DNA from: Rhizophagus irregularis
Lineage: Eukaryota > Glomeromycota > Glomeromycetes > Glomerales > Glomeraceae
Direction: 5' to 3'
Assembly: GCF_026210795.1 (NCBI RefSeq)
Contig: NC_089450.1
Coordinates: forward strand, 1,240,001 to 1,304,000
DNA: 64,000 nt
The first letter of the stretch is position 1. Each line of letters opens with the position of its first letter. The notes below the pieces were generated by a model, which worked only from the letters and a program-made list of their open reading frames with translations, ran no database searches and was not told the origin of the DNA. Position numbers and translations under genes: made by a program. This document shows positions 2,414-30,670 of this stretch, piece after piece.

Positions 2414-2470
2414 GTATACATCGATGGATTTTGTAGATTATACCGGTGGAGTAATTCCATCGATGTATAC
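2414..2470. repeat. Perfect 15-bp hairpin stem
   Basis: GTATACATCGATGGA at 2414-2428 is repeated as its exact reverse complement at 2456-2470, with a 27-nt loop. It lies 24 bp after the foldback at 2273-2389. Function unknown. Confidence 0.5.
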
Positions 2471-4483: not shown

Positions 4484-4485
4484 TA

Positions 4486-6532: not shown

Positions 6533-6855
6533 AGGTCATATCTTACTATGTTTTAAACTTTATTTTTCTTTTAATATGTAATTTTATTAAGTTAATATTA
6601 CTTTTTACTATAGAAAAAAATGTTTCTTTTGAAGAGAAGAATCTTTTGATACCAAAATCTTATAAATTTACTGATTAGAATTTGAGATAAGTATCGTTAC
6701 ATAGGCAAAATTTGGCAAAAAAATATACGCTTTTTCACCATCGGTATACATAGAAATATACAAAAAAATAAAAATTACTATTATTAAATATTACTTTTTA
6801 AGTAACAAAATTATAGATAATAGAGGGTAAATTTTTAGCATAGAAGATATGACCT
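6533..6855. mobile_element. 323-bp MITE with AGGTCATATC ends
   Basis: The ends AGGTCATATC and GATATGACCT are inverted. The flanks 6521-6532 and 6856-6867 are identical (TAATTATAATTG, 12 bp), longer than usual and partly low-complexity, so the true duplication may be 9-12 bp. That would fit a Mutator-like element. The LINE reading resumes after the right flank. A 69-codon open frame here is AT-rich filler, not a gene. Confidence 0.65.
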
Positions 6856-7961: not shown

Positions 7962-8507
7962 TATATATGAAGTTGAAATTAAAGCCCAAAAGTAGAAATA
8001 TTTCAACTTGGGAAGGTCAAAAGTCAAAATAAAAATTGAAATAGTCAAAATTATATCATAGTCATGTGATTTTTAAACGTGAATAACTCCATCAATATTA
8101 ATGCTACAGATATAAAATACATATCATTGGAATCCTCTCGATGTGCTGAATCCAACTGCATAAATATCATAAAAATCGAATTACTGAATGCGGAGTTCGT
8201 TAACTTTGAATTTTAATATTATTGTTTACTATAAAAATTATAAGCCAAATTTTAAATGTGAGTAACTCTGTCAATATTGATGCTACAAATATGAAATACA
8301 TATCATTGGAAATCCTCTCGATGAGCTGAATCCAACCGTGTAAAGATCATAAAAATTGAATCACTGGATGCGGCGGAGTTCATTAACTTTGAATTTTAAT
8401 ATTATTGTTTATTATAAAATCAAATGACTATGACGTAATTTTGACCATTTCAACTTTTGGAGGGGCCATTTCAGAGGTCAAAATTAACCAATTTTAGTTT
8501 TATGTAT
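7962..8507. mobile_element. Mutator-like MITE copy 1 (9-bp duplication)
   Basis: It interrupts the LINE reverse-transcriptase active-site segment. The 9-bp flanks 7953-7961 and 8508-8516 are identical (ACCTTGATC), and removing the insert rejoins FMDDSTLI to ASLKSG. Ends read TATATATGAAGTTG and the reverse complement of TTTATGTATA. The interior contains two diverged direct copies of a roughly 200-bp block ending near TTTTAATATTATTGTTTA. No coding capacity. A second, inverted copy is at 15067-16123. Confidence 0.85.
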
Positions 8508-11159: not shown

Positions 11160-11270
11160 CAAAAATCGGCACATATGGAATAGTCCATTTCGTCTAAATT
11201 TCAAATTGACGAATATTGGATGAAAGTTGGTCTAAATTCAGCCGATTATTGCCAAAAAAATCGTTAAAAT

Positions 11271-14211
11271 TAGGGTTTCGATCCTAAATCTACTTAATCC
11301 AGATTAATCCGTCAATCCAAATAATTTCAGATATCCTGATCCGTAGAAATTTGAACGGATGAATCCGATTGTACTGCGGATTTAAGATAATAGATGATCC
11401 GGATTTTAATCCTTATAAATAGGATGGATTATCGCTAAATTTTAATTTATTAAACCTTCGTAAGAACATGATGATGATGAAATTTAATAAATCTTTAAAA
11501 GGCAATCAAATTTGTTAAAACTCATTCACATTTGTATATTTTACACGTTAATGATGTTATAATTGAATAAATTGGTTAAAAATGCCTTATATTCGAAGAT
11601 TTTTTTTTAAAAAAAATAGAGTTTCGTACTTTAGAAAAATTGTATTGATGGCAGACAGTTCTAACGAAACAGAATTTAATAATAATCATAACCAAAATGA
11701 TGCTGAAGTTGAAGTTAATGAAAAGACTGCAACCAAGTGGAAAAAAAGGAAAAACCCCAGTTTTACTAATGAATATTTTGAAAAAATAATTGATCCAAAA
11801 ACTGGTAATGAATTACATATTTGCAAAATCTTAGATGATGATGGCAACTAGTGCAAAAAAACATATCGAAATACAGGAAGTTCAACAGGAAATCTAATTC
11901 AGCATCTGGATTTAGTGCACAAAATCGTTTCTCAAGAAAATGAAAAGAAAAAGGTAGATATTTTTTGCTTTAATTACTATTTACTTAAAAAATAAAATTT
12001 TTAAATTCTAATGTCAATAATCTAATATTTAGCCGCGTACGACAAAAATTACAGATTATGTAAAAAGTACTCAGCCCCACCCTCCACATATTCAAAAACA
12101 ACGGGAAGAAGGTTTGCTTAAGTGGATGCTAAGAACAAATCAGCCGCTCTCTGCTGTTACAAATGAAGCATACAAAGAAATGATAAATATTTTCGATTCA
12201 TCATTTATTACTATACCAGAAGAAAAAAAAATTCGAACAACGATTGGAAAAAGTTATAATCACAATCAAAGAAATTGCCATAACCTTCTTGATGAAACAG
12301 CACGGAATATTTCATTAACAATTGATTTTTGGTCTAGCTACTTGATCACACCAGATCTCAAAATTAAAGATGCATGCTGTGATCAACTATATTCCTTCTC
12401 CTCATACAGCAGTTCGTTATTGCCGATTCCCTACATAAGATTATTTCAGATTGGAAATTAGAAGATTGTATCTCTTCAATCATTACTGATCAACGGAGCT
12501 AACATGGTAGCATTCAATTCCTTTCTTGAAAATTAAGCCTGGGTGTTCTGATATTTTACGCTTACCATGTACAGCCCACACATTACAGCTTGCAATTATA
12601 AAAGGATTAACTCCAGTAGAAGTTCTGGTGGCACGTGTAAGGAGATTAGTAAGATTTTTTGTAACTCAAAAGCAAGTAGAACGATTAACAGCAGTTCAAA
12701 AAAAACTTGGCTACAATGAAGTTTTACACCTTATATAAGATGTTCCAACCCGTTGGAATTCTACATACTATGCTTGGGATCGTATTTATTTTTTTAAAGA
12801 CGCTACTATTCAACTTCAAACAGATTTAATTACTTCATCCATTAGAGAAGAAAAGAATAATGGTGCAAAGCTCAAAAAAATTATGCTATCAGATTCTGAG
12901 TGGGAATTAATAGATCAATTAGTATCTTTATTAATGCCATTTGAAGAAGAAACATGTAAATTTTCTGGTAGAACTTACGTGACTTTAAGTAGGATGATAT
13001 CAACTATTAAAGAGTTAATTTTTGATCTAGCTGGAGATTTTCCATCCGATAATACAACTAATCTTTCATATGAAGATAATGAAGAAGTTAATACATTTCC
13101 AATTGAAACTAATGATGAAGAAGTTATCAGTGATTTCACCAATAAGAAAATATCAATTAAAGAACCTTTGAATACAACTGGAGTTTTGAATAAAGTTCAA
13201 AATAATATTTATAACGCATTGATTTTTTATTGGAATATTCCTAATGAACTTGGTTTAATGGCGGCACTTCTGGATCCCATTATAAAAATTTAGACTTTGT
13301 GGAGGATGAAGATGAAAGACAACAAATTATTCAAAAGCTTCGTGATGAATATAATAAAATCAATAATAAAACTGCAAATTTCCAAGAAGAAATTCAATTA
13401 GAACCAGTTTCTCCAGAAGAAGGTTCTTCCCATTCATATAAAAAATATCAACAATTACGTTTAATGAAATATAAGAATAAACAACAAGTATTAAATGATG
13501 AATCCACTGCTAAAATAGATAAAATTGCAGAATATTTGGCAATGCCATTAGCGATGGAAACTGAAGATCCACTGGAATGGTAGAAGGCTCGTGTACAAAA
13601 TTTTCCAAATCTTTCCAAACTTTCTCGTAAGTATTTAGCAATACCTGCGACTTCTGTATCTAGCGAATGTTTATTTTCAGATGCTCCGGCAACCTAATAA
13701 ATGCATGCAGAGACACGATTAAATACAAATCTAGTTGGAAAAAATGCTTTTTTTGAAACGAAATATGAATGTTATGAATGTTTTCGCACTCAACTGGAAT
13801 GAGGAATAAACAGTAATACTGTAATAGTAAGTAGTAACTTACAAATCATAACTCAAATGGTCAAATTACAATATCAGTTTTAATAAATATTAAATAAACG
13901 TGCATAAAGCATAATTGTCAATTTATAATTGTCAATTGTTAAATGGTGTTGACGTTTTTAATTTTTTTATTTGTAAAATGTAAATTGTAATTTGTTTTAA
14001 TTGTAAATTGTTATTACTTTATAAAGTTGTACAGTATATCTAAATCCGGATGAAAATCTGAATGCAATCCTATTATTAACCCAGATTAAATCTGAAATTA
14101 CGGATGATCCTAAAAATTTCGGATTATACTAAACCCGAATTATAAACCGAATATGATGATGGGAATTAGGATTCTATCCGAATAGCTTTAAAAAATAGGA
14201 TCGAACCCCTA
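11271..14211 (+). mobile_element. hAT transposon hAT1 with 8-bp duplication
   Basis: Terminal inverted repeats are TAGGGTTTCGATCCTA on the left and TAGGGGTTCGATCCTA on the reverse complement of the right end (one mismatch in 16). The flanks are GTTAAAAT (11263-11270) and ATTAAAAT (14212-14219), an 8-bp duplication with one change. The empty site is visible at 42.95-43.1 kb. A degenerate hAT transposase lies inside. Length 2941 bp. Confidence 0.92.
11649..13800 (+). pseudogene. hAT1 transposase (BED finger to hAT C-terminal domain), degenerate
   Basis: The gene probably starts at the ATG at 11649 (MADSSNETEF), not the upstream in-frame ATG at 11582. A BED-type zinc finger follows (HICKILDDDGN, then CKKTYRNTGSS and HLDLVH), broken by a TAG at about 11849. 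A likely 80-nt intron runs from about 11954 (GTAGAT) to the TATTTAG before 12034. Core pieces are SLTIDFWSS (first catalytic Asp region), LPCTAHTLQLAI (about 12553-12588), VPTRWNSTYY near 12745 and the C-terminal dimerisation segment DPLEW to IPATSVSSE (13566-13670). Several stops and frameshifts make it inactive. It acts, in living relatives, by cut-and-paste DNA transposition in the nucleus. Confidence 0.88.
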
Positions 14212-14520
14212 ATTAAAATTATTATGGACGATTTGCACAGTTTGCCTACTACTTGGCAATCACAAATTGGCAAAAATTCATTAAAAAATCAGAAATAAAC
14301 GATTCATCAACCTTTTGTTAGTCATTTATCCAAATTTTAAATTGCCGAATGTTGGTGAAATTGAGTCTAATTTTGTCTAATTGTTAATGATTTTTATGTA
14401 TTTGGTTTATTTTAATTTTGCAATAACAATCAATTAATTATATTTTATTTTTTCGCTTTATTAAAATTACACATTAAAAATTATCATATTAAATATCAAA
14501 TATTTACAGTATCTGTCTAT

Positions 14521-14685
14521 TTACACCTACCATCCACCATCCACCATCCACCATTTACCATTTACCATTCACCATTTATTGTCAACTATTGTCAACCATC
14601 ATCAACCATCATCTACATCCATCATTTACTACCCATCATCTACCATCATTTACTCATCCAAAATTATCTATGACTTACAAAAAAA
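14521..14685. repeat. CCAT/CATTTAC microsatellite
   Basis: Tandem CCAT-rich units (CATCCACCATCCACCAT, then ACCATTTACC, then ATCATTTACT variants). It lies directly beyond the 3' edge of array A as read on the minus strand. Confidence 0.75.
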
Positions 14686-14689
14686 TAAA

Positions 14690-15057
14690 GAAACGGTTAG
14701 TAAACCATTATTATTTCAATAAAAAAAGGTTAAAGTTTTGAAGATTCAAAACCTACCTATTCAATAGAATTCCAAAAGAAAATCTACAAAAAAAAATAAA
14801 GAAACAGTTAGTAAACCGATTTTTTAATAAAAAAAATTTTAGTTTCAAAATATTTTGAAATTTACCTAGCCAAAAATTCAAAGTGGAAACCTACAAAAAA
14901 AAGAAGAAACGATTAGTTAAAGTTTCTTTGAAAAAAAAAATAATTTTGAAATATGAAACTTACCTGATCTGTTCAATATAAGTTTGAAGTGGAAACCTAC
15001 AAAAAAAGGAAAGAAATGATTAGTTTTTTATTAAAAAAGTTTTCAAAGTCTAAGGAT
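14690..15057 (-). repeat. Array A, segment 3: exon-like/intron-like tandem units
   Basis: Read on the minus strand, short blocks begin after a T-rich run ending TTTGTAG and end before GTAAGTTT or GTAGGTTT. Examples are the blocks starting ATTTTCTTTTGGAATTC and GTTTCCACTTTGAATT. Intervening blocks carry an A/T hairpin. This is the downstream end of the array that continues at 16133-16445 and 24777-27185. See the finding on arrays A and B for measurements. Confidence 0.75.
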
Positions 15058-15066
15058 ATTACAACT

Positions 15067-16123
15067 ATACATGAAATTGAAATTGGTTAATTTTGATCTC
15101 CGAAATAGTCGAAATGGTCGAAATGATTTTGACTTGAGCCCCTCCAAAAGTCGAAATGACGTCATAGTCATATGATTTTATAGTAAACAATAATATTAAA
15201 ATTCAAAGTTAACGAACTCCGCATCCAGTGATTCAATTTTTATGATTTTTACACGTAAGGTTGCTTGCCAAAATTAGGTAATTTAGGCCAAGGCCAAAAC
15301 TTTTTTGTAGCCGAAAGTTTAGGCAATCAAAAATAAATTTGCTGAAATTTATAATGCCGAAATTATTGCCGAAAGTTTGAAATTTGACCGAAATTATTGG
15401 TATAATTCTGGCCATTTTTAGGACGTAATTCTGGCCAGAAAATGATCAACATTACAAATTTCCTTTTTTGGAAATTCGTGTACCCTTTGTGAAACTGATT
15501 TCACCAATTTTACTGGAAAACAAAATTTCCTTTTTTTGGAAATTGGTGTAATGTCACGTGACACAATGTCATAATTTCGGCTGAATTTTAATTTTGGCCA
15601 AAATTAAGACTGAGTTTCGGCCTAATTTCGGCATTTTCGGCATTTAATTTGATTGGCCAAAACCTTTCGGAATTTCCTTTTTAGTTTTGGCAGGCAATCT
15701 TATTTACACGATTGGATTCAGCTCATCATCGAGAGGATTCCAATGATATGTATTTCATATTTATAGCATCAATATTGACAGAGTTATTTACATTTAAAAT
15801 TTGGTATTAAATAGTCTTATAATTTTTATAGTAAACAATAATTTTAAAATTCAAAGTTAACGAACTTCGCATCCAGTGATTCGATTTTTATGATCTTTAC
15901 ACGGTTGGATTCAGCTCATTGAGGATTCTAATGATATGTATTTCATATATGTAGCATCAATATTGACGGAGTTATTTATGTTTAAAATTTTATATTAAAT
16001 TATAATTATAAAAAATCACATGACTATAATGTAATTTCGACCATTTCAACTTTAATTTCGACTTTTGACCTTCCCAAGTTGAAATATTTCTACTTTTGGG
16101 TTTTAATTTTGACTTCATATATA
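15067..16123. mobile_element. Mutator-like MITE copy 2 (inverted), with nested MITE
   Basis: Identical 9-bp flanks ATTACAACT at 15058-15066 and 16124-16132. Relative to copy 1 (7962-8507) it is inverted: the TCTACTTTTGGG end is now on the right. Without the nested MITE and its duplicated target it is about 600 bp, close to copy 1. It is inserted in array A, between segments 2 and 3. Confidence 0.85.
15256..15702. mobile_element. hAT-type MITE (TAAGGTTGC family) nested in the Mutator-like MITE
   Basis: Exact 8-bp duplication TTTACACG at 15248-15255 and 15703-15710. Ends TAAGGTTGCTTGCC and, reverse-complemented, TAAGATTGCCTGCC. Interior is rich in GGCCAAAA/TTTTGGCC-like words. The sister block of the host at about 15890 gives the uninterrupted TTTACACGGTTGGATTC. 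A 60-codon minus-strand frame inside is not a gene. Confidence 0.9.
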
Positions 16124-16132
16124 ATTACAACT

Positions 16133-16445
16133 AATACTTATAAAATAAAAAAATAAATAAAAAAAATTAAAAATTTATTTTAAAGTTTTGAAAAGAAAAT
16201 AAAGCTTCGAAACTCACCTATCCAAAATCCAAGAATTGAAAGTTGAAACCTACAAAATAAAAGAAAAAAAATTTAAAAACAAATTAAAAAAGTAATTTTT
16301 TTTAAAAAAAAGGTTCAATTCTTTCACTTCAAAACTTACCTATATATCCAAGTGCCTTAGAACTGAAAGAAATCTATAAAAAAAAATTAAAATAAAATTA
16401 AAAAAATATTTCTTTTAAAATAAGTTTCGAAGTTTTACTTCAAAA
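16133..16445 (-). repeat. Array A, segment 2
   Basis: Exon-like blocks on the minus strand, including ones starting GTTTCAACTTTCAATTC and ATTTCTTTCAGTTCTAAGG. Each follows a T-rich acceptor-like run ending TAG and precedes GTGAGTTT or GTAAGTTT. The segment ends at the left target duplication of hAT2, which falls on the donor side of a unit whose other half is at 24777. Confidence 0.8.
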
Positions 16446-16633
16446 CCCACCTACAGTGATAATGTGGTGGGATAACGTCCAGCTTAAATGATTTGGACTG
16501 GGACTTTCTGGGACATTGTCCAATAGTCCGTATCCCACTATGTCCCAATCAGTTAGTTGTCCATTGGACAAGTCCCACTTAAAAAATTTCTTGTCCGGCT
16601 GTCCAGCGTCTGAATATCCAATTGTCTCACGTG

Positions 16634-17568
16634 TAAAAATGGTCATCGGTCCTAAAAGACCGCAGTTCTACAGTTTTACACCATAAAAAGACAAACTGGT
16701 CCGTCTTAGTGTAGGACCACGGTCTTTCAGTCCTGTATCACATATAATAAGACCGTCAGTTTTTTTAAAAACTGTAGTCTTTTTAAGACTGATCAGTTTT
16801 TTTTCTTTTTTTTTTACAAATAAAAAAAATTTTTTCCTTAACTTTATTAGGAATAGCCTTGTTTTATAAATATGAACACTAATCAGGATGTTTTTAAATA
16901 TACAAATTTTTTTTTTACAAATGATCATCACATGCATCATGCACTTACTATTATTGTATTAGTGATAATAATTGTGATATCTCGTCATCCAGTGATTATA
17001 AAAATATGAAACTATCACCATTCGAATCATCTCAATGAGTCGCGTCAAATGGTATCAAAATCATTATTTTATAATCGATAAAAAAAAAATTACATCGGCA
17101 AAACTATTTGATAACAAATTCAATAATTGCTAGCTATCTATCGATCCTGGAAATATGATTTAGCCACCATTCGACACATCTCGTTGAGACAATTCGAATG
17201 GTAGTGGTTTTATCATTTTATGATCACTGGATGACGAGATATTCTGCTTAAACACTTTTTTGGAGTTCATTGATGCATGGTAAAGGATATTCATCCCGTT
17301 TGGGGCGTTTTGACAGGCAACTCTACAAGTAGGGAGAAGTAATTTTCATTGTTTTGAATTGGTTGGTCTTTATATTATTTTATAAAGACCTTCATTAGAT
17401 TAATAGATTTATTCAATATAAAAATCATTATTATATGAAGACTGATATGAGAACTGGTCAGTCCTCGGGACTGGTCCTACTGCACTATAAAAAAATGCAA
17501 GACCGCAGTCCGGTCCTACAAGTTCCAGAACTGACGAGTAGGACCAGTAGGACCGATGACCATTCTTA
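16634..17568. mobile_element. 935-bp hAT-type MITE in hAT2
   Basis: Ends TAAAAATGGTCATCGGTCCT and, inverted, TAAGAATGGTCATCGGTCCT (one mismatch). The 8-bp flanks are CTCACGTG (16626-16633) and CTCGCGTG (17569-17576), one mismatch. Subterminal GACCG/CGGTC and GGTCCTA words recur near both ends. No transposase inside. It carries the foldback 16977-17242. Confidence 0.9.
16977..17242. repeat. Foldback with perfect 20-bp inverted ends
   Basis: ATATCTCGTCATCCAGTGAT at 16977-16996 is exactly inverted at 17223-17242. Inner arms also pair: ACCATTCGAATCATCTCAAT against its near-complement around 17190-17210. Loop includes a run of A around 17085. It contains the shared ATCCAGTGAT motif. Confidence 0.75.
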
Positions 17569-17743
17569 CTCGCGTGGCTGAAGATCAAACTTTTTTTACC
17601 GATTATTTTTTTTTTAAAAAAAAAATCTTTTTTACGATAAACAGTTCAGCATTTTATTTTTTTATTAAAAACATTTTATAATTTATTCATAGCTTTTAAA
17701 AAATCATTTTTTTACACTACAATACAACTTTTCGTCTTTTACA

Positions 17744-18036
17744 ATGCCACCAATATCAGAATTATTAAATGATTATATTATTAAAACTAAAGAAAAACTC
17801 AATCAGAGTAACCTTAAAACGTATTGCAAATTGCAAATGTTGTATTGATGTATTAGGAGAAGAGGAAGGAAAACAAATTTGTTTTCCAAATAAAACAGAT
17901 AGAATAGTACAACATTTGAAAAAGTGCACTCATTTTCTCGCAGCAATAACACCTGAAAAAAGAAACGTTATTTTTTCATTATTAAAAAATAATGAAAAAG
18001 AATTAGAAAATAAACGACTATATAACATCAGCAAGT
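17744..18036 (+). pseudogene. hAT2 transposase, N-terminal exon (BED-like finger), frameshifted
   Basis: The likely start is ATG at 17744 (MPPISELLNDYIIKTKEKL). A frameshift near 17830 moves the reading to the frame with CKCCIDVLGEEEGKQICF, then HLKKCTHF: Cys/Cys and His/Cys pairs as in a BED-type finger. The exon ends around KRLYNIS near 18030, where the sequence AACATCAGCAAGT could be a GC-type splice donor or simply the edge of the inserted element that begins at 18026. The rest of the gene resumes at 22372. Confidence 0.7.
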
Positions 18037-18529
18037 TTGAAAAGTGTTGATTCATACCAGTATACGTGTTGATCAACACCAGCTAGTTGTTCAAAGTGTT
18101 TACAATATTAATCAACACCCATATACTGGAATATACTAACGCATAATGTTAATATATGTGTCATTCAACTCTAATTGTGTAGTTTAACACATTATACAAT
18201 TGTTGTTCAACGCACTGTATATTTACGCATATATATGATTACATATGTATATTTTAATTAAATTATATTTATTGATTTATTTTTACTCACCTTAGGAACT
18301 AAACTGGTTACCTCAACTTACAATATCATATCTCACAATCTAACCAATGTACTATTTAATTTAAGTATAATATACATTTATTAAAATTAGCATTTAAAAA
18401 AAAAATCATTTCGGCAATACTATAATGGCCGTAATGTACTCTATATCATGTGTATTACGTAATACTAGATTACTGCTGTGATAGCAAAAAAAGAAATTAA
18501 GCTTTTTTTAGCAAAGCTTAATTTTTTTT

Positions 18530-18700
18530 GCTTTTCCTCTTCGTTCTTCCCTTCCCTTTTGTTTTCCTATTACCCCTTCGTTCTTCCCTTCGTTCTTCCT
18601 TTTCCTTTCATTTTCCCATTACTCTTTATTTCTCCTCTTCCCTTTCGTTTCATTCTTTTCCCTTTTGTTCTTCCCTTTCTCCCCTTTCCTTTATAAAAGT
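18530..18700 (+). repeat. Pyrimidine (C/T) tract followed by a TATA-like box
   Basis: Repeated TTCTTCCCTTCC/TTTTCCTTTC words make the plus strand almost purely pyrimidine. The tract ends with TATAAAAG at 18692-18699, upstream of the hairpin array and array B in the same orientation. This could be a promoter region for a transcript through the array, but that is only inferred from position. Open frames here are low-complexity. Confidence 0.5.
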
Positions 18701-18879
18701 TTTATCCGTTATTTCTGTAAAAACTCTGTAAAAATGAGCCTTCACTGATCCATTTACAGAAAATGTAATAAGTTGATAAATTCCATAATATAAGGTCATT
18801 AATTCCGGAGATATGAGCCTTTTACAGAAAAAAGTTTGGTGAGTTTTGCAATAAAATGTTGTGAAACTATTTTTCATTT

Positions 18880-19700
18880 TTTAACGAAACGTTAAAAAAT
18901 ATTTTGAAATAATTTTTTTTTAAATTTTTCATTAAAATTATTAACAAAACGTTTTTAATGTTTCAAAATATATTTTTTTTATTTTTTCTTTAATCGGAAT
19001 ATTGGTTCTAATTTTTTTATTTTTTCTTTTAACGAAACATTTTTAACGTTTCGTAATATAATTTTTTCATTTCTTTTAATCAGAACGTTGGCTAACGTTC
19101 TGATTATTTTTATTTCATTTTTTTAACGAAACGTTTTTAACGTTTCGAAATAATTTTTTTTAAATTTATTTAATCGGAACATTGGCTAACGTTCTGATTA
19201 TTTTTTTTATTCATTTTTTTAATTAGAACATTGAAAAACGTTCCAAATTATTATTTTTTTTCATTTCTTTTAATCGGAATGTTGGCTAATGTTTTGATTA
19301 ATTTTTTATTTCATTTTTTTAACAAAACGGTTTTAACATTTTGTTAATAATTTTTTTTTTCTTTTTTAATCAGAATGTTGGCTAACGTTCCGATTTACAT
19401 TTATTTTTTCTTTTTTTAACAAAACATTTTTAACGTTTCGTTAATAATTTTTTTTCTTTCATTTTTTTTAATCAGAATGTTAGCTAACGTTCTGATTATT
19501 TTATTTTTTACGAAACGTTTTTTAACATTTTGTAATATTTTTTCATTTTTTTTTAATCAGAATGTTGGTTAACGTTCTGATTTACGTTTTTATTTCTTTT
19601 TTTAACGAAACATTTTTTACGTTTCGTAATGCTATTTTTTTTTCTTTTTTTTAAAATTTTTTTAATTGTTTGTTTTTTTACAAAACGTATCTAACGTTTC
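18880..19700 (+). repeat. Hairpin tandem array (AACGAAACGTT / AATCAGAACGTT type)
   Basis: Alternating palindromic blocks: AACGAAACGTTTTTAACGTTTCG-like and AATCAGAACGTTGGCTAACGTTCTGATT-like, each separated by T-rich spacers. About a dozen and a half palindromes, degenerate. The same AATCAGAAYGTT palindromes occur inverted at 27190-27470, upstream of array A as read on the minus strand, so both arrays share the order hairpins then exon-like units. Confidence 0.75.
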
Positions 19701-19704
19701 AATT

Positions 19705-21800
19705 TTTTATTTTTTTTAGGACCGCAGTTTTCTGGATGGCTCACAGATAGGAATTTTGAAGGTAAACCTTCAAATTTTTTTTGATTTTGTTTATTTTTAA
19801 CGAAATGTATCTAATGTTTCGATTTTTTATTTTTTTTTAGGACCGTGGCTTCCTGAATGATTCATGGACAGGTAAAATTAATTTTTTTTTTAATTTATTT
19901 TAATGAAACATGACTAATGTTTCATTTTTCTTTCTTTTTTAGGTTCACGGATTTCTTTTTCTAAATGGGATTTCAAATATTATGGTAAGTTTCACAACAA
20001 ACGTTGTGAAACTTCATTTATTTTTTAATTTTTTTTTTAGAAACGTTTCTAACGTTTCTTTAAATTCTTTTTGTAAGTCTTTTTTTTGGAAAACGGAGGA
20101 AAGGGTAAGTTTCAAAGCATTTTGCTTCGAAACTTTTAAAAAAAATTTTTTTTTTTAATTTCTTTTATAAGGAAACGTTTTTAACGTTTTCTTTATATTG
20201 TTTTTTTTTGTAGGTATTTCTTTGGGAATTGGGAAATGCAAAGGGTAAATTTCGAAACTTATAAAAATATTTTTTTTATTTTTTTTATAAGGAAACGATT
20301 CTAACGTTTCCTTTATAATTTTTGTAGGTCTTTCGGAAAAGTGCAAAAGTGCAAAGGGTAAGTTTTGAAGCGTTTTGCTTTGAAACTTTCTAAGAAAAAG
20401 TTTTATTATTTTTTTTATTATAAAGGAAACGGTTTAACGTTTCCTTTATATTTTTTGTAGATATTTCTTTGGGAAACGGGAAATGCAAATGGTAAGTTTT
20501 GCTTTAAAATTTATAAAAATATTTTTTTCATTTTTTTTTATAAGGAATGTTTTTAATGTTTCCTTTATAATTTTGTAGGTTTTTCGGGAAATGCAAATGG
20601 TAAGTTTCGAAGCGTAATTTTACACTTCGAAACTTTTTAAAAAATTTCTTTTTTTAAAAACATTAGAAAACATTTCTAACGTTTCTATATGATATTTTTT
20701 TGTAGGAATTTTCGACTTCAAATCTTGGATAGTATAGTAAGTTTTGAAGATTTGAATCATAAAATTAATTTTTTTTAATTTTTATTAGGAAATGTTTATT
20801 AACGTTCCTTTATTTTTTTTTTGTAGGTTCAGAAGTTGAGTTTGAGAGTTTAAACTGGTAAGTTTTGTTAAAAACAAAACTTATATTTTTTTTAATTTTT
20901 TTATTAGGAAACTTTCTAACTGAAGTACTGAACGTTTCCTTTCTTTTTTGTAGTTTGGGAATATCCAGTATTAGATACGTGGTAATTTTGCATGAAACTT
21001 TTTTTAAAAATGTTTTTTATTAGGAAACACTTACTAATGTTTCCTTTGTTCTTTATTTTTAGGTTTCGGAATATCTGGATAAGGGTAACGTAAAGTTAAG
21101 TTTCATTTCGTCACAAAATAATATCTTTAAGAAACGTTCTAACTGAACGTTTCCTTTTTCTTTTTGTAGGTTCAAGAGTATGGAATTGGATACGGGCTAT
21201 AAAATGGGAAGTTTTGTACATTTTGTTATGAAACTTCCATTTTTTTTTGTTTTTTTTTTTTAAGAAACGTTCTAACTAAATGTTTCTTTTTTTTGTAGGT
21301 TCTTTTCAGCTCTGGATTTTCTTTCGTAGGTCAGTTTGGTACTTGGATTTTTTTTTATAGGGAAATGAATAAGTTTCATAATATAACATGAAACTTTTCT
21401 TTAATTTTTTTTTTAGGAAATGTTAATTAATGTTTCCTTTTTCTTTTCTGTAAGTTTTGGATTTCAGTTTGGGTCAACGGTGAGTTTCGCAGATTTGTGA
21501 AATTTATTTTTATTTGTATTTTCTTTTTTTGAAAATGTATTGTTGACACCTATATTTCTTTTATTTATAAGCTTCAGGATTCCGAGCTAAAGATTGGTGA
21601 GTTTAGTAACATTTTGTTACAAAACTTTTCTAATTTTTAATTGATATTGGATCGATCGGATCATAAGTTTCATAATTATGAAACTTCTATTGTCATTTTT
21701 TTAATATAAACCATTTTCTAATATTTCTTTTATTTTTGTAGGTTTCGGTCAGCTTTTGGAATATTGGATAAGATTGTGTAAGTTTTGTTAACGAAACTTT
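19705..21800 (+). repeat. Array B: tandem exon-like blocks separated by intron-like blocks
   Basis: About 17 repeated units on the plus strand. A clear run has exon-like blocks at 20214-20244, 20328-20357, 20461-20491, 20579-20599, 20706-20736 and 20827-20857 (31, 30, 31, 21, 31 and 31 nt). They are separated by intron-like blocks of 83, 103, 87, 106 and 90 nt. Intron-like blocks begin GTAAGT or GTAAAT and end in a T-run plus GTAG. Each holds a palindrome such as GGAAACGTTTTTAACGTTTC and often a second stem that includes the donor (AAGTTTCGAAG with CTTCGAAACTT). Exon-like blocks resemble each other (for example TTCGGAATATCTGGATAAG). They do not form an obvious protein. Confidence 0.8.
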
Positions 21801-22371
21801 TAATTTTGTTTTTTTTATTTGAAACCCATCTTGTTATGGTTGTATCACCAGGGGCACTTTGTTAACGGAAATTTAGTACATTAATCGCTTAAAAATCTGC
21901 AACAATCCAATTATAATAAGAGGTTGTATTATTTGCATTGTACTGTATTTTATAAATAAATATACAATATTTTACAATTAAATTTTATATGTTAATAATA
22001 TACAATAATATATATGTTAATAAATTACTAATTTTACAATTAAAGTTAATTAACTAACATATGATGACTAAAAAATACCGTTGCTATACGCGTTTTTAAT
22101 ATCAATATACGCGTTTTTATACATTTTTAAACTATCATTGTTTTACTATGTGTAGCTTTACATTTAAATTAGTGTTGTTTTACGCGTTTTTAAACATTTT
22201 TAAGTAGCGTTGATTGATAAAGGGTTCGTTTCTTTACATTTTTTAGTGTTGAGTAACACATGGCGTTTTTCAATACTTTATACGCCTGTTTAAAACTTGC
22301 TGATGAAGTATTAAATATTTTACTGTATATGTTTTTTTTTTTAAATTAATACTGATTTCAATTTCTTTATA

Positions 22372-24554
22372 GCTTCACATTTCAGTGATACAACTTTCAC
22401 TTTTTCTGATTCTTCTAGAAAAGTTATTATTCGTTCTTCTTATGGATCACTTGATAATTTTATTGTTAGATCATTGTCAAAGGAAGATAGAAAAAAATTT
22501 AATACATTATTAATTTGATTAACAGTTTCTTGTAGATGGGCATTGCATTGGGTTAATAATCCTAAAGCAAAAGAACTATTTGAGTTTCTTAGTCTTTTCC
22601 TTAAACTTCCTGATCGTAAAACTCTTGGGAAAACAATTTTGAATGATGTTATTTCTTAAGCAGATGATGCAATGGAAATTGCATTGAGAGAAGATCCTGT
22701 AAATATTATACTTACGTTTGATGGCTGGATGAATGTGAAGAGTGAACAGTTATTAGGTGTAGTTTTAATGACGTCAGAGGGAAGGCCTTTTGTATGGAAA
22801 GCAGCTGATATTAGTTCAGAAAGGGAAACACATCTTGAAGTGATGGAAAAAACAGAAGCTATGATTGCTGATTTAGAAAAAAAAGTATTAATGTTTGTGC
22901 TGTTGTAACAAATAGTGCGGGTACATATGCTACATCCAGGTAATTTAATTATAATAACATTGTTTTTATTAAATATAAGTATATTTTTTAATAAATTATT
23001 ATACTCTTAAACGAAAATTAAGGTTTTCAAATAGAAAAATAACTTTTTTGCCCTGTTTTGCGCACTAACTCAATCTTTGCATAGGCGAAGTATTTAAGGA
23101 GTCAACTGATTTAAAAGTATCAATGAATCATGCAATCAAGCTCGCAACTTACTTTAGAAACGCTAATAATAAGTTATTTATAGCAAAATTACATGATTAA
23201 CAAAAAATTACTTATGGAAAATATTATACATCAGCAGTTTCAGGCGAAACTCATTGGAACAGTTATTAGAGAATTCAACAAGCTTTACAGGTAAATTTAC
23301 ACTATTAATTAATAATGCAATTAATTAATTAAATTTATTAATTTATTTTTTTTTATTGTACTTTTAAGATATTTGCAATAAATTACAAACCATCTCTTAA
23401 TCAAACTCGAAGAAAGACAGAAGAAACTCCAACTATTTCACACAAAATTTTTGAAATTATTGATTCAACTACATTTTGGACTAATATAAATACAATTGTA
23501 GAAATATTATATCCTTATTGTAAGTTTCTTAACATTCTTCAACAAGATAAAGCACGCTTATTTCAGGTTATTCATAGTCTTGCATATCTTGCACAATTTT
23601 GGAATAATTATGAAGATACTCAGCTTTCTGCAAAAATATTATTTCAATTAGAAAAAAAGTGGAATGACTGGGAACAGCCACTTCTTTTGTTATCATGTTT
23701 ATTACATCCCGAATATCGTATGAGACAATTTAAAGATAATGTGAATATTAATTATACCACTTTTGGTAGATGGCTTGTTTATTATTATTAAGCATGGTCT
23801 GGAAAAGAATCAACTTGTATTTTACGTGAATTTGATGATTTTTGTTTGGAAAAATATCCTTTTGATAATAATACATATAAGCAATTTAATAGTGATATTT
23901 GGAGATACTGGTGTTATGCAAAGGATTCCACTAATGAATTAGGTTTTGTTGCTTGTAGATTATTTGGAATTTGCATAAATGCAGCTTTTGTTGAGCGTCT
24001 TTGGAGTTGTATGGGGTTTTTGCAATCAAATTGGAGAAATCGCTTAATGTTAGTAAGTATTATTTTTGTGAAATTATACATATATTATATATACATATTT
24101 TAATATTAATAAATTTTTAGTCATCAAAGGCCCTTAATATAAGCAAATTAAGAGCAGATATTACATGGAAATATCATGTCAAGTCTAATTCTTCTATTCC
24201 AACTCCACTTAGTATGTTGAAATGAATAATGACGAAAATTCCAATGAAAATTCTAATGAAAATTCGCATGAAAGTCCTAATGAAAATCCTAATGAAAATT
24301 CCAATGATTTAGAAGAATCTGATAATGAGGAGATAGATTTAAGTCATTTAACTGATTTAGAAAAGGAATTTGGTAATTATTTACAGGGATGGGCAGAAAT
24401 GTTAGAAGAAGAAACTCTCAAATTTCAAAATGAAGAAAATGAAATTAATGAAGTAAATGAAATAACAGTTAGTGATGTTACTCATCCTGCAGTTGATACA
24501 AATGCCAAATGGGATTTAAATTCTCTTTTTAAAGAATTAGAATTACCATTTTAA
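22372..24554 (+). pseudogene. hAT2 transposase, central and C-terminal parts
   Basis: After an acceptor-like TTTCTTTATAG (22371) the frame reads SDSSRKVIIRSSYGSLDNFI, LPDRKTLGKTILNDVIS, then NIILTFDGWMNVKSEQLLG (hAT catalytic core with Asp-Gly-Trp), INVCAVVTNSAGTYA (second-Asp position reads Asn here), a decayed stretch with small introns near 22940-23080 and 23290-23370, LLSCLLHPEYRMR, and a C-terminal dimerisation-like segment (ELGFVACRLFGICIN to WRNRLM, 23935-24050). The tail (24222-24554) has NENSNEN-type repeats, an acidic stretch, and ends DLNSLFKELELPF. Stops at 22516, 22658, 22906 and 23790 and further frameshifts show decay. Overall fits a hAT-family transposase from the element's own gene. 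Confidence 0.82.
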
Positions 24555-25648
24555 TAATAAAGTTTTGCTATTAATTGAATTATAAAATACTTTTAAATTA
24601 AATAATATTGTTATTTGTTTAATTGTCATAAATTTTAATATTTATTTTTTAATAAAATATATATCAAATATATATCAATATCTCAGACATTACCAAGTCT
24701 TTGTCCAAGGACGTGGATTGTCCGGACTGTCACATCTATGGACATGTTCCGTTCCAATCACAATACTGTCTACCTATATATCTAACGTCTAAGAACTGAA
24801 AGAAACCTACAAAATAGAAGAAAAAAAAATTGAAATAATTTTTTCTAAAAAAAGTTTCAAAGTTTAACTTCAAAATTTACCCATATATTCAACACCCAAG
24901 AACCAAAGGCCAAAACCTATAAAATAGAAAAAAAAAATTTAAAAAAAATATTTTCAAAGAGTTTCGATTCCTTCGCTCTGAAATTCACTCATATATCTAA
25001 TGTGAAGCTGAAACCTAAAAAAACCAAGATTTGTATTTGTACTTATGAATCTTAGTTCATTTATTTGTCAGAAATCCACTCAAACCTATAAAAAAAAATA
25101 GAGAAACGGTTATTAGTAACCATTTGTAATTTTAAAAATAAAAAAAAATAAAACCAAGATTCATATATACTTATAAATTTTGGTTGGAAACCCACTGAAC
25201 CTATAAAAATAAAGAAAAGAACGGTTAATAACCATTTTTCTTAATATTAAAAAAAATAAAACCAAATTCGTATATACTTACAAATCTTGGTTTTTTCCGT
25301 ACCTACAAAAAAAAAAGAAACGATTAGTAAATCTGAAACTTACCTTTGGGATTTTGGTATTCACGCCAGAACTGATATCCCTACAAAAAAATAAAAAAAA
25401 AACATTAATTTTTAACATTTTTTTATTATAGTTTTAAAATTTTTTAAAACTTATTTTTGGAATTCGGTATTTACACTGGAACCAATAGCCCTACAATTAA
25501 GTATAAAAAAAACATTAAAAATGTTTTTTTTAAAGAAGTTTTGAAAATAGTTCAAAACTTATCTGGAATATCAGCGTCCATGTTGGAGCTAATTTCCTAT
25601 ACAAAAAAATAAAAAAATAACATTTTTTAATATAAAAAAACGTTTTTA

Positions 25649-25958
25649 TAGCTAATTGCAAAATTGTAAGACCACTCTATGATTTTTTAATTTGAAAATT
25701 TAATATTTTGAATTTTTCAAAAATCAGTAAAAAATCAAGTTAAAAACCTGTTTATTCAACTCCTTAAATAAAAATAGAAACATGTCATATGATTCAATAT
25801 AAATAAATTACTTTAAAATCTTTATTAATTTTAAGGAGTTAAAGTTATTACCAAAATAGGTATTTAAACTTGCTTTTTTACTAATTCTTAAAAAATTCAA
25901 AATATTAAATTTTCAAATTGAAAATCATAGGGTGGTCTTACAATTTTGCAATCAGCTG
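25649..25958. mobile_element. Mariner-like MITE, copy 2
   Basis: TA at 25647-25648 and 25959-25960. Inverted ends TAGCTAATTGCAAAATTGTA and, inverted, CAGCTGATTGCAAAATTGTA. Nearly the same interior as copy 1 at 4175-4483, including GACCACTCTATGATTTTTTA. Lies in an intron-like block of array A. Confidence 0.82.
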
Positions 25959-26457
25959 TAGAAACTTTAGTTTTGAAACTTACCTGGAATATTGGTATCC
26001 ACGTCAGAACTGAATTTCTAAAATAAATATAATAAAAAAAAACGTTTTTAATATTAAAAATGTTTTATTAAAGAAAGTTTTGAAAGTTTTTTTCAAAACT
26101 TTACCTAGAATATTGGTGTTCACATTGGAGCCAATTTCCTGCAAAAAAAAATTAAAAAAACGTTTTTTAGTTAAAAATGTTTTATTAAAGAAGTTTTAAA
26201 ACTTTAGTTTTGAAACTTAACTGGAATATTAGCGTCCATGCTGAAACCGATTTCCTAAATAAAAATAAAAAAAACGTTTTATTAAAGTTTCAAAACTTTA
26301 GTTTCAAAACTTACCTGGAATATCAGCGTCCATGTTGGAGCCAATTTTCTATACAAAAATAAAAAAAAATTAACATTTTTTAATATAAAAAAACGTTTTA
26401 TTAAAGAAGTTTTGAAACTTTAGTTTCAAAACTTAACTGGAATATCAGTGTTTACGC

Positions 26458-26688
26458 TAAGGTTGGCAAATTGGCAAAATGCTGAAATGGTAAACTTTGC
26501 CGAAACTATATGAAAGTCTTATTAAAAAGTTGGCAAAACTTTGGAGAAAAGCAAAACCTGACGAAACCTATTATAAATGCCAAAACTGCCAAAACTGCCA
26601 AAACCTTGCCAAAACTATAATAAAACTATAGTAAAATTTTGGAGAAACTAATCATAGAATTTTGGAAAGGTTTAGGCAGGCAACCTTA
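26458..26688. mobile_element. 231-bp hAT-type MITE (TAAGGTTGG family) in an array A exon-like block
   Basis: Ends TAAGGTTGGCAAA and, inverted, TAAGGTTGCCTGCC, matching the family of 15256-15702. Interior repeats GCCAAAACT. The 8-bp flanks GTTTACGC (26450-26457) and GACTATAC (26689-26696) are half identical, but both precede the TGGAG expected from the exon consensus, consistent with an old, mutated duplication. Confidence 0.7.
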
Positions 26689-27189
26689 GACTATACTGGA
26701 GCTAATTTCCTATAAAAACATAAAAAAAAACATTTTATTAAAAACGTTTTATTAAAGAAAGTTTTGAAAATTTTTTTCAAAACTTTACCTGAAATATTGG
26801 TATCTACGCCAAAACTGATTTTCTACAAAATAAATAAAAAAGCGTTTTTTATTGTTAAAATCCAAAACTTATCTGGAGAAACGGTATCTATGCTGGAACT
26901 GATTTCCTAAATAAAAATAAAAAAAACGTTTTTTTCATTAAAAAACGTTTTATTAAAGTTTCAGAACTTTTTGTTCTAAAACTTATTTGGGGAAATGGAT
27001 TCATATTAGAACCGATTTCCTACACAAAAAATATAATAAAAAAACATTTTTTAGTATAAAAACGTTTTTTTTAAAAAATCTTTCAAAACTTTACCTGGAA
27101 AATAGTAATCACGCTAGAACTGATTTCCTATATAAAAGTATAAAAAAAAACATTAGAAAACATTTTCTTTAAAGTAACAGTTTTGTAAA

Positions 27190-27470
27190 AAAAATTAAAA
27201 AATCAGAATGTTAACTAACATTCTGATTGAAAATATAAAAAAAAATTAAATAAAACGTTAAAGAACATTTTGCAAAAAAATGAAAAAAAAATTTAACAAA
27301 ATATTAAGAAATGTTTTGTAAAAAAATAAAAATATTAAAAATCAGAACATTAAACTAACTAATGGTTTAATGATCCGATAAAAAATTGAACAAAAAAAAA
27401 TTTCAAAACATTTAAAACCGTTTCATTTAGAAAAAGAAATTTTTTTTTTTGAAATAGTTTAAACTATTAT
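27190..27470 (-). repeat. Hairpin leader upstream of array A
   Basis: Contains AATCAGAATGTTAACTAACATTCTGATT-like palindromes and AAAACGTT/AACATTTTG words, degenerate. It corresponds to the hairpin array 18880-19700 that precedes array B. On the minus strand the order is hairpins, then array A. Confidence 0.6.
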
Positions 27471-27552
27471 TTAATAGTCTAAATTCGGTAATAGATCAAC
27501 TAATTACTGTGGCTGTGGTTTAGTACATTGTCACTGATCTGCCGTTATTGAT

Positions 27553-27824
27553 ATGAATTAATTAAAAAATCAGTTAAAAATTGTCAAAAAAGTTTTTAAG
27601 TTGATTGTTGTTATTAATAAAAATCAATAAAAAAAATAGTATTGGTCAATTTATGGATTTTTTTATGTTACAACTCAACCAAAAATCGACCAAAAATTGA
27701 CTAGTTGATTTATGCTAAATTTTTTTTCAATTTTTGTAATTAGCCGAATGTTTGACGAATCACGTGATGATGATGATAAACTTTTGACAAAAGGTATTAA
27801 TGCCAAAAGAATGATTTTGACCAG
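27553..27824. repeat. Repeat R, copy 1 (about 270 bp)
   Basis: About 85-90% identical by eye to 58830-59092: TTAATTAAAAAATC at one end, GGTATTAATGCC and GATTTTGACCAG at the other. Both copies directly abut LINE sequence at the GACCAG end. Includes TCACGTGATGATGATGA. No coding capacity and no convincing inverted ends. Confidence 0.7.
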
Positions 27825-30670
27825 TGCTAAGGATTGTTGGCAGAAAAGGACAAATTCCTATTTGGTTTACTTATTTAAAAAATAATATTTTAACTTCCTT
27901 TCACCCTTGTCCTGGCTGTTCTCGTAATGTTTCTAAATATGCCATCCATTCTGTTATCAAAAGCCATTGTACTAGTGAATGTTATTTCTTTCATACCTTA
28001 TTATCAGACATTGTAGTAGGGAATAACGTAAAGTTGACAAAGTTCATCTTACGTTCCGTGCCTTACATGTTTATGATATTCACTTTATTTATAGATTCCT
28101 TTATTCTATTCCAAGTAGTACTGTAGCCTATCCTACCAAGAATGCTAAAGTCTTTGCCACTGGATGGCCTATTACACTACCTCTCTAGCCATGTCCTCTC
28201 TTAGCCTCAACAAGTTAATGATAACATTATATCTGTCTTACCTACTTCTGCTTGTACTTTATACACTGATAGGTCCTTTCTTAAAGCAACTCCTATGACT
28301 TAACCTTTCATGTCTACAGTTTGGATAGCCCTTGATGATGATGGTCTTATTTTGGAATCTTCATCTACAAATATTCCTAATACTTATTCTTCTGCCCTCA
28401 GATCTGAAGTGGCTGCTCTTTTAGTGCATTGTCTCCAGGCTTTTTTGTCATTGTACACACTGATTGCACTTCTATAATTTCCTTTTGGCAACAGTTTGTT
28501 GATAAACCTTTTCTGCCTAAGCTTTTGTGTCAATCTAATCATTTACTTTGGCTGTTCATCTGGAATCTTTTACACACTAATAATTTATCAGTTGTTTTTA
28601 GCAAAGTTTCCGCTCATAAAGAAGATCTCCTTAATAACCATGTACAAGTCAAAATCAAGGCAAACATAGCATGAGCTTGAATTTTATTAATTAATGCTGA
28701 AGTAACTTTAGAGAATACAGAGTATTCTAATCTGATAAAAAACTCTTTTCCAAATACACATTTTTATGAAAAATTTTTGCAAAAATTTTTTTTAAAATTT
28801 GTTCTTTTATTATAAAATTTTTATGAAAATGTCTGGAAAGACTGAACCTTCACTTTTTATCAAGGGAGTTCACTGAATTTTTTTTAACGGTGCTGAACTG
28901 GCTTTAGCAACCTTTATTCCTACCTACAACAAATGTTTTTAAGTACTTTAAATAAAGTTACTTTCCTAATGACCTAAAATATTTTGCAGAACAGTCCAAG
29001 GTCACAAATATACAACCTATGATTTTTTCGTTAATAATGTCTATAGTCTCTCATGCTGTGGCTACAGGGTGGGATGCCTATAAACAGGCGCTTTATGATA
29101 ACAAACAAGAAGCAATAGGAATATCTGATTTGGATGATTCAGATAATTCAGCCAAGGATTGTGACACAGATGATATAATAGAAAATATGCCAATAACGTC
29201 TATATCAAATCCAGTTCCGATATTACAGCCTGAATTACCTGATGTGGTAATGATTTCTATTGATCAGTCAATAATTTATCCACACCCGCTATAACTGAAG
29301 TACTGACAGGATATGAAGTATCAAGTCCAGAAGAACGTGAGCACATCTGTGACATAATAGTATATGACATTCCATTTACCTGGTCTGCTGAAAAGACAGT
29401 ACAAATATCAAACCCTTAGGGTAAAAATAGCGTTGTTCTCATTTTCCTTGCTGCAGTTTAATAATAATTGGGCTACGAATTTAGGAGGTATACCAGTGCG
29501 ATGGTTTCCTGCAAATTGGAGTCTCTGCGAACAAAAACAAAGAGAAAAATTCCAGGCTGTAGTTTACAACATTCTGGAAGAAGTCACTACGAGCACCTTG
29601 TGGAATGACTGAAAACCCACTACTTACTTATGTGAACTTGGGGTTAAGTCATTTAAGATTATACAAACAGGTAAAGGCAAGAGGAAACTGCAAGGTCTTA
29701 GATTACCATCAAGTTTTGAGCTCAGAAAAGATCAGGTTGCCATGGTGTTAACACTCTATGCCTAACCTAAAGAAAATGCCCTCAACTAAAGACCATTCTG
29801 GAGGAAAAAAAACCTGTTCCAGTAATGCGAAATCAAAGAAGAAGGATGATAAATTCTCACCTAAAGCTCCTGATACAAGTAATAAGTTGAAGAAACCCCT
29901 GGGCCAGAAAACGAAAGCAATAGTTCGAACAAGGAGGTTTTAGCAAAAATTTTAGAATTATTACGAAAATTAGTTTAGTCCTAATAGAATTTAGTTATTT
30001 CTACTAATTTCTTGATATTAGCATAGCTGAATAATTTATGTGTTGTACCACAATTTCTTGTGTACTTATAGATAGGTTTTTCTTTTCAAAAAGTTAGGGT
30101 TAAATAATAAGAATACAGAGTATTCTAAAAAGAACCATAACAAAGTACAGAACTAATAGAAAAATAAAGAACAAATAATCTTCTGAAAATTACAAATAAA
30201 GAAAAGCTAAGATTATTAAACTCCACCCTCTCTATACAAATAACTATGGCTACTCCCCCGCAATCTATTTTAAAATTGGTAAAGTTGACTATATTATACG
30301 TAATCCAGCATACAAGAACCCATGTTAAGCATCATCAGTCAAGTACTTCTGAGCCACCATTAGTACTCAAAAATGTATAAAATTCAATTTCCCCTATTTG
30401 ACTATATACTATGGATAACAAACTACTTCACAAAGGCCTCTGAGACAGCCGATAGGAAACTTTTTAGTGTCATGTAATCCCCAAAGGGACACCCACCTCA
30501 TTGCAAAAATCCTAAACAGAGGATACCCACCTTATTGCAAATGATCCATCGACCTAAGATTTACCTAGATAAGTCAATCCAATGATAATCCAACATGTGA
30601 CCACCTTAATCGGCATACTACAAAAACTGCCTGAACAATGATTAATTTTCAAAATGTAACACCAAGTCAC
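27825..30670 (+). pseudogene. LINE ORF2 3' part (CPGC region, RNase H), interrupted
   Basis: Reads LRIVGRKGQIP, SFHPCPGCSRN (27890-27930), then a ribonuclease H domain with LYTDRSF near 28260, WIALDDDG near 28325 and SSALRSEVAALL near 28395, homologous to YTDGS and SHAEAAA of the LINE at 37.5 kb. After RNase H the reading is broken by the ORF1-only retroposon 28731-30109 and resumes with a tail containing AIYFKIGKVDYII near 30270-30310. A related tail (LYFKQGRIDYVV) is at about 37350-37395 on the plus strand. Stops and frameshifts throughout. Confidence 0.75.
28731..30109 (+). mobile_element. ORF1-only retroposon C1, 19-bp duplication
   Basis: Exact 19-bp flanks AGAATACAGAGTATTCTAA at 28712-28730 and 30110-30128. 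The 5' end has AACTCTTTTCCAAATACA. The coding part (from about 28823, MSGKTEPS) corresponds to ORF1 of C5 but carries a stop, frameshifts and deletions; fragments 29019-29294, 29364-29612 and 29758-29940 remain. It has an RNA-recognition-like core (IVYDIPFTW) and a Lys-rich tail. A 3' UTR of about 165 bp ends TTAGGGTTAAATAATA. No reverse transcriptase inside. Inserted downstream of the LINE RNase H domain. Confidence 0.85.

Follow-up and report, generated by a model that had tools for sequence, protein, structure and literature searches.

A window of 64,000 nucleotides of the Rhizophagus irregularis genome (contig NC_089450.1; C22:1240001-1304000) contains two arrays, A and B, in which exon-like blocks of a few tens of nucleotides alternate with longer, palindrome-bearing blocks that begin and end like introns. 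What are these arrays? The explanation that we favor, with a probability of roughly two in three, is that they are the interior of non-autonomous transposons and make up an intron-saturated, non-coding transcription unit that has grown by tandem copying of an exon together with its intron, a unit whose transcription and splicing we infer from the DNA. Judged by their ends and alignments, the two arrays do not form a single whole; each belongs to a transposon family of its own, one nested inside the other.

The arrays in the window and in the genome

Introns were called with a simple chain model of donor, branch point and acceptor, with reversed sequence and dinucleotide shuffles as controls, and the whole 146.7-Mb assembly (32 contigs) was searched for related sequences. 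In array B, a donor/acceptor scan reproduced exactly the dimensions given in the original prediction, namely blocks of 31, 30, 31, 21, 31 and 31 nt separated by spacers of 83, 103, 87, 106 and 90 nt (Table 1). Over 2,120 bases of this array, the chain model reached a score of 97.9 with 16 introns, while 100 dinucleotide shuffles gave at most 9.3 and 3 introns; in the interval 18300-22600 it found 17 introns, and 0 on the reversed sequence. Array A is a decayed relative. The scan returned non-overlapping blocks of 34, 34, 16, 16, 21, 26 and 36 nt at 27400-24700 and of 34, 32, 33, 25 and 14 nt at 16500-14600. Blocks of 32-36 nt are thus common, in keeping with the earlier description, but the claim that most measure 33-37 nt was not confirmed; the short blocks probably reflect mispairing where sites have decayed. 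In array A, the first piece scored barely higher than its shuffles (9.7 vs 7.4), and the second gave chains of 4 introns (23.2) and 3 introns (13.8), scores that stand without a shuffle control. In locus L014, a relative of array A, the model found 15 introns with a score of 85.9 (7.8 in shuffles).

Further arrays exist elsewhere in the genome, as had been anticipated. A pattern made of the donor hairpin, a T-rich gap and TTTTGTAGG has 433 genome matches against 0 in the backwards control, and the donor hairpin by itself gives 1,780 matches, compared with 72 when the pattern is reversed; the 1,780 include perfect palindromes that match on each strand (5 pairs of this kind in the 100 matches listed). 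Sixteen array loci of 6 kb, taken from the first entries of the genome-wide intron-pattern list, were analyzed along with three sequences from the window, 19 in all. On the expected strand, each of the 16 loci has a main chain of 7-15 introns; when reversed, the 19 sequences gave no chain.

Table 1. Features of the two arrays and of the elements that carry them (positions in the window)
Feature	Position	Strand	Evidence or remarks
Array-B element, family 2, PlavakaB-type, non-autonomous	18026..22305 (4.28 kb)	+	CATCAGCAAGTTT...AAACTTGCTGATG; flanks AA (18024-18025) / AA (22306-22307)
Promoter-like hairpin TTAAGCTTTTTTTAGCAAAGCTTAATTTTTT	18497..18527	+	84 genome matches to hairpin pattern
Pyrimidine-rich tract, then TATAAAA (~18692-18698); putative core promoter	18535..18698	+	Sequence; same layout in L031
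Putative long first intron: donor GTGAGT, tandem TAAC-loop hairpins, acceptor TTTTTTAG	18839..19719	+	Sequence
Micro-exon/structured-intron array B	19720..21777	+	Donor/acceptor scan, chain model, shuffle control
Six consecutive micro-exons of array B	20214-20244 (31), 20328-20357 (30), 20461-20491 (31), 20579-20599 (21), 20706-20736 (31), 20827-20857 (31)	+	Donor/acceptor scan
Conserved 3' end region of array-B element (TTATGGTTGTRTCACCAGGGGC...)	21834..22305	+	28-base degenerate pattern: 40 genome matches, 0 in control; common to L038
Decayed, interrupted array-A element (family 3, EnSpm-like; CACTGGTCA ends)	11170..27826	-	Ordered alignment to L014
Aligned pieces of array-A element (include)	27826-27426, 26456-25966, 25617-24777, 16446-16124, 15047-14215, 11272-11178	-	Alignment to L014
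hAT-like element inserted in array A, with array-B element inside	16454..24768	+	Flanking 8-mers CCCACCTA/TCTACCTA, 6/8 equal

Anatomy of the introns and exons

Chains scoring at least 14 were counted and lower-scoring ones dropped, which left 201 exons and 224 introns. The introns have a median length of 90 nt; exons of 38 and 31 nt are the most frequent, and 160 of the 201 exons measure 25-45 nt. The donor consensus is GTAAGTTT and the acceptor consensus TTTTGTAG, for introns that the chain model picked partly on those same words (it recovers only five of nine introns marked by hand in L031). A typical intron begins with a donor hairpin, the donor lying at its base or in its loop, and continues with a T-rich stretch, a second hairpin, a T-run and TAG; a branch-point word of the CTAAC/TTAAC type sits at or near the loop of the second hairpin. 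In family 2, some exon ends appear by eye to pair with the intron, placing the donor in the loop. Donor, branch point, pyrimidine tract and acceptor stand in the order of spliceosomal GT-AG introns.

The palindromes described in the original prediction are real. Perfect stems of at least 7 bp occur on the donor side of 112 of the 224 introns (15.6% in shuffles) and on the branch-point side of 150 (15.0% in shuffles); of those 150, 106 have a branch-point word within or adjacent to the loop. These figures are for Watson-Crick stems and dinucleotide shuffles, used instead of a statistic with G-U pairs whose null was too high (195/224 on the donor side). There are 47 distinct stems on the donor side and 37 on the branch-point side, around the same splice words, which agrees with the prediction that these words are kept while the palindromes vary. 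The signals also have a direction. In the 16 loci (window arrays excluded), GT, which was not required by the search, precedes 111 of 124 donor hairpins, whereas on the opposite strand (n=129) it is outside the eight commonest dinucleotides; downstream of exact GAAACGTT hairpins, the first AG belongs to GTAG, TTAG or ATAG in 51 of 55 cases, at a median distance of 15 nt. With chains far above their shuffles, these counts support the proposed exon/intron-like architecture on the expected strand, and the copying of exon and intron together in tandem is likewise supported.

The introns are predicted to fold strongly: the mean z-score was -3.37 (120 of the 224 introns; 71% below -2), compared with 0.19 for shuffled introns and -0.08 for 17 ordinary introns, with approximate ends, from chaperonin genes of this genome (1 of 18 gaps gave no candidate and was dropped). 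No match at the Rfam gathering score was found in L001, L008, L012, L013 or the window.

The transposons that carry the arrays

Array B lies in an element of family 2, with the ends CATCAGCAAGTTT (5') and AAACTTGCTGATG (3'). All nine copies read with both ends have CATCA..TGATG and an identical 2-bp target duplication (AA, TA, TT, CC, AT, TC, AT, AT, AT), and the exact 19-base 5' end has 56 genome matches and 0 in the control. Among six young copies, 14 of 15 pairs are 91-97% identical over about 3.7 kb between unrelated flanks; the remaining pair, L035/L037, aligned in two pieces (94% and 87%). CATCA..TGATG with a 2- or 3-bp duplication is the PlavakaB signature, according to sections of PMC12730594. 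A 7.8-kb relative, L038, has the same two ends (283-8121) and codes, on the strand that runs against the array direction, for a Plavaka transposase (PF18759, E 5.3e-34). By termini, duplication and the transposase present in the family, the family-2 elements are classed as PlavakaB transposons.

L038 and the array-bearing copies share roughly 370 bp of 5' end and roughly 440 bp of 3' end; L038 has no match to the promoter-hairpin or donor-hairpin pattern. Hand comparison of the match lists showed seven copies with the family-2 5' end (C2, C4, C5, C12, C14, C15 and C29) that have PF18759 2,160-2,167 bases inside and no promoter-hairpin match; by the same comparison, no transposase was seen in the array-bearing copies of this family. 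Because transposase-bearing copies with the same ends do not show the array patterns, the array copies look like non-autonomous derivatives.

Between the putative promoter and the array, the family-2 elements have a putative long first intron, whose donor and acceptor words are identical in all six young copies. Both in the window (18839-19719) and in L031 (about 1530-2590, array sense), this stretch is a run of palindromes with TAAC-type loops and two alternating stem types, resembling an expanded branch-point hairpin. Among the young copies, 205 of its 1025 sites are variable, perhaps through misalignment.

Family 1 starts with CACAGGTCGAA and ends with TTCGACCTGTG, and six of the seven copies with both ends have a 3-bp target duplication (ATA, AGT, ATC, TTT, TAG, ATA), L005 being different. 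EnSpm elements have CAC..GTG termini and a 3-bp duplication (sections of PMC12730594), and on these features family 1 (six of seven copies) is assigned to EnSpm/CACTA. In the 9.3-kb 5' part of a long family-1 copy, the sole open frame of at least 110 codons is of low complexity. A 15-kb family-1 element at C4:2392541-2407569, with an ATA/ATA duplication and a long array, has about 7.6 kb ahead of a promoter-hairpin remnant. Family 3 has CACTGGTCA ends; in L014 the duplication is GTA/GTA but the 3' end is CAGTA, and L012 has CACTG..CAGTG with the flanks AAG/AAA.

Array A lies in a family-3 element with its 5' end at 27826, a degraded 3' end near 11170 and no duplication left. Since its pieces align in order to the single element L014, they are one broken copy. 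The array is fragmented because it was split by a hAT-like element (itself holding array B) and by what we read as further insertions, the alignment gaps 16124-15047 and 14215-11272. The hAT label and the split gene are a reading of the frames on both sides rather than a profile match, and no long frame spans the insertion point. Frames surrounding the arrays look hAT-like in the window and Plavaka-like beside L008 (labels by eye), and the frame at L025 had no Pfam match; the possibility that an array is part of such transposase-like genes was rejected, since other copies have unrelated flanks and target duplications of their own.

Short inserts with inverted ends, MITE-like by eye, lie within array A at 26458-26690 and about 25650-25957; the former shares 86.8% identity across 227 bp with a part of locus L014 that lies beyond the element there. 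On the minus strand, the window contains another pair of family-3 ends at 42950 and 59094, some 16 kb from one another, which correspond to 255 bp of the 5' end and 196 bp of the 3' end of the L014 element. Array-like micro-exons similar to those of array A were seen at two more C1 places (L041 and L045), which are almost the same as one another.

A cargo shared between families

The pattern for the promoter hairpin TTAAGCTTTTTTTAGCAAAGCTTAATTTTTT, with its two variable gaps, has 84 genome matches and 0 in the reversed control. Fifty-four of them are found no more than 3 kb inward of an element 5' end on the same strand, and 0 on the wrong strand: 28 are 413-517 nt inside a family-2 end and 26 are 1.2-2.6 kb inside a family-1 end. 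In the copies read, a pyrimidine tract comes after the hairpin, and after the tract comes the first exon, which in family 2 has TATAAAA ahead of it. Around this region, the family-1 locus L016 shows 68% similarity to the window element across 391 bp. Because this region is alike while the element ends differ, one cargo is present in at least two transposon families.

Coding signal and sequence conservation

The exons look non-coding. Their lengths are spread evenly over the three remainders modulo 3 (73/68/60 for remainders 1, 2 and 0), stops make up 4.0-5.0% of codons in the sense frames and 3.5-3.7% in the antisense frames, and all 16 chains with at least 7 exons have at least 2 stops in the best frame. 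Best-frame stops are fewer than in mononucleotide shuffles in 15 of 16 arrays; that control was too lenient, and dinucleotide shuffles and the antisense strand were used instead. Against dinucleotide shuffles 15 of 16 arrays are unremarkable, and sense stops fall below antisense stops in only 3 of 16, and we reject coding potential of the micro-exons.

Are the splice words conserved? Among seven overlapping comparison sets, they are less variable than the rest of the intron in four: L001/L006 (1/129 vs 39/724 variable sites), L001/L006/window (19/128 vs 183/701), family 1 (38/111 vs 358/731) and L003/L015/L005 (11/86 vs 129/521). The expectation that splice words would be held more tightly than their surroundings is thus upheld in these sets and fails in the other three. 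When introns were marked by hand in the six young copies of family 2, variable sites numbered 2 of 90 in splice words, 16 of 609 in introns and 45 of 346 in exons. It would be tempting to see a diversity device in such variable exons. However, 42 of the 45 exon changes are transitions and 23 lie in a CpG context, and no diversification is claimed: much of the excess variation of the exons is explained by C-to-T decay, with 22 of 288 exon sites and 12 of 563 intron sites variable outside CpG.

How might the arrays work, and what else could they be?

Under the favored explanation, RNA polymerase II would transcribe the unit and the host spliceosome would join the micro-exons into a short non-coding RNA, the two hairpins of each intron folding its length away. 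The array would grow by tandem duplication of one exon-plus-intron module. Such growth would be tolerated because each new module is spliced and hence neutral, and splicing of each module would in turn keep the splice signals, hairpins and exon size while the exon sequence drifts. Transposase would presumably be supplied in trans by full-length PlavakaB relatives, which were found for family 2 only. Why would splicing be kept? Escape from RNA quality control or silencing is the reason we favor, with low confidence. The arrays might even represent a new class of transposon cargo, a gene saturated with introns and free of protein whose selected trait would be its very spliceability. The hairpin introns and narrow-sized micro-exons would make the transcript collapse to a short spliced RNA that shields the element from silencing or RNA decay, and the cargo would be handed on between families; we put this forward as a tentative idea, possible rather than probable.

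Several observations weigh against a transcribed and spliced unit. The case for transcription and splicing is built from DNA sequence. The constraint on splice words is modest overall, with no difference in L013/L014 (14/109 vs 108/604, p=0.22), L004/L016 (3/122 vs 14/704, p=0.73) and young family 2 (0/55 vs 2/288), and some GT/AG sites vary in the divergent sets, by misalignment or by decay after insertion. The branch-point A is unpaired at 0.40, hardly more than in shuffles (0.35) or ordinary introns (0.33) and contrary to expectation; the ordinary introns were themselves placed by score in the gaps between profile matches. Weak chains (6.5-7.7) occur on the reverse complement of 3 of the 19 sequences, and 30 of the 84 promoter hairpins lack an exact element end upstream. 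In L013, stops are fewer than in its dinucleotide shuffles (fraction 0.005). No transposase turned up for families 1 and 3, no profile search having been aimed at EnSpm transposase. Finally, the palindromes could be signals at the DNA level.

If the arrays were a dead or neutral satellite inside transposons, in which a piece of a former intron-exon gene was amplified by slippage, the splice words would persist by common descent only and nothing would be transcribed. The window has many A- and T-rich satellites, the exons drift mainly by transitions, nearly half of the 45 changes (23) being in CpG, the splice words of the six young copies vary at about the intron rate, and three of the seven comparisons show no constraint. 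We nevertheless consider it unlikely, in view of the four comparisons that do show constraint and of arrays of different families, about 65-70% alike, in which the stems differ and the words for donor, branch point and acceptor stay the same. The palindromes might instead be binding sites for the transposase or for host proteins, the splice-like words being incidental. CACTA elements have repetitive subterminal regions with protein-binding sites, the tandem palindromes here lie within EnSpm/Plavaka-type elements, and the run at 18839-19719 has no exons. What makes such a DNA-level role improbable is the strand asymmetry of GT before the hairpins, the number of distinct stems (47 and 37), unexpected for a binding site, and the existence of L038, which has the same ends without the array patterns.

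The original prediction had likened the arrays to introner-type multiplication, in which units insert singly into genes and are spliced out, so that the arrays would be stacked insertions. Every unit does have complete splice signals, and one isolated match, L043 (C1:437252), follows a 60-codon open frame and precedes TTATCAG, possibly as a lone intron. But six of eight isolated motif matches are array-like (one more is ambiguous, the last being L043), the exon is copied along with the intron, and the units are internal to transposons whose own ends, outside the array, carry the target duplications, so that this likeness is not supported and we regard the reading as very improbable. With respect to open frames of at least 150 codons, the elements are inserted in 3 sense and 4 antisense orientations among 17 sites; there is no sense bias and therefore no support for self-removal from genes. 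Least credible of all is a protein-coding micro-exon gene that makes a variable protein. Schistosome MEG genes and the bicycle genes of aphids are micro-exon genes, and micro-exons of constrained size with variable sequence would suit such a gene, as would the deficit of stops relative to mononucleotide shuffles and the result for L013; against it stand the even spread of exon lengths modulo 3, the excess of sense over antisense stops, the stops in the best frame of every chain with at least 7 exons and the 15 arrays that do not differ from dinucleotide shuffles.

Relation to known systems and significance

The carriers are of known kinds, and the cargo appears to be new; no transposon with a comparable cargo is known to us. 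The family-2 array elements share termini, 2-bp duplication and, in the relative L038, a Plavaka transposase with PlavakaB, but have a non-coding micro-exon array in place of the transposase. Family 1 shares CAC..GTG-type termini and 3-bp duplications with EnSpm/CACTA elements, and family 3 may do so as well, its copies L014 and L012 each deviating and the window copy being decayed. Repetitive interiors are usual in CACTA elements; here, on the other hand, the interior is a strand-specific exon/intron-like array. Introners are mobile DNA with complete splice signals that gives rise to many introns of common descent, whereas the introns of the arrays form tandem stacks together with micro-exons within a larger transposon, and at most one of eight isolated matches could be a lone intron, with one more ambiguous. 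Many short exons, or functional or structured introns, are also found in snoRNA host genes, mirtrons and MEG or bicycle genes; the arrays differ in being transposon-borne, with no reading frame and no Rfam match at gathering score. A parallel in cargo is offered by fungal transposons carrying TET/JBP, a protein-gene cargo that occurs across superfamilies and has no ends of its own (sections of PMC12730594); the cargo of the arrays is likewise common to different superfamilies without ends of its own, but it is non-coding and intron-rich. SP7-type effector genes, which encode repeat proteins with a conserved intron ahead of the first repeat (parts of PMC11333574), do not fit the arrays, and neither do the one- or two-intron genes described in parts of PMC8786786. 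The literature searches made here turned up no description of such arrays, and term searches in the main text of two papers on transposons of this fungus, PMC8647823 and PMC11075540, brought up no transposon intron, splicing or hairpin.

If the arrays are spliced, the structured introns of this genome would number well above a thousand, set in natural tandem repeats and rich in paralogous variants, and would offer a ready experiment on the roles of hairpins, branch-point display and exon size in intron definition and on intron multiplication. Transposons could then carry and exchange non-coding, splicing-dependent cargo, and satellites and unclassified repeats of arbuscular mycorrhizal fungi may be transcription units.

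Other features of the window

Elsewhere in the window, at 45888-47386, a 52-bp unit that has a GC-rich hairpin (CGCCGGAAC..GTTCCGGCG) in A-rich spacers is repeated in tandem about 30 times; the low-score Rfam matches of the window fall mostly on this hairpin satellite, at 46-47 kb. On the minus strand at 48390-49700, directly upstream of a short minus-strand open frame, lies a T-rich array with words of the TTTGCAG and TTAAAAA types, which is perhaps a different exon/intron-like array.

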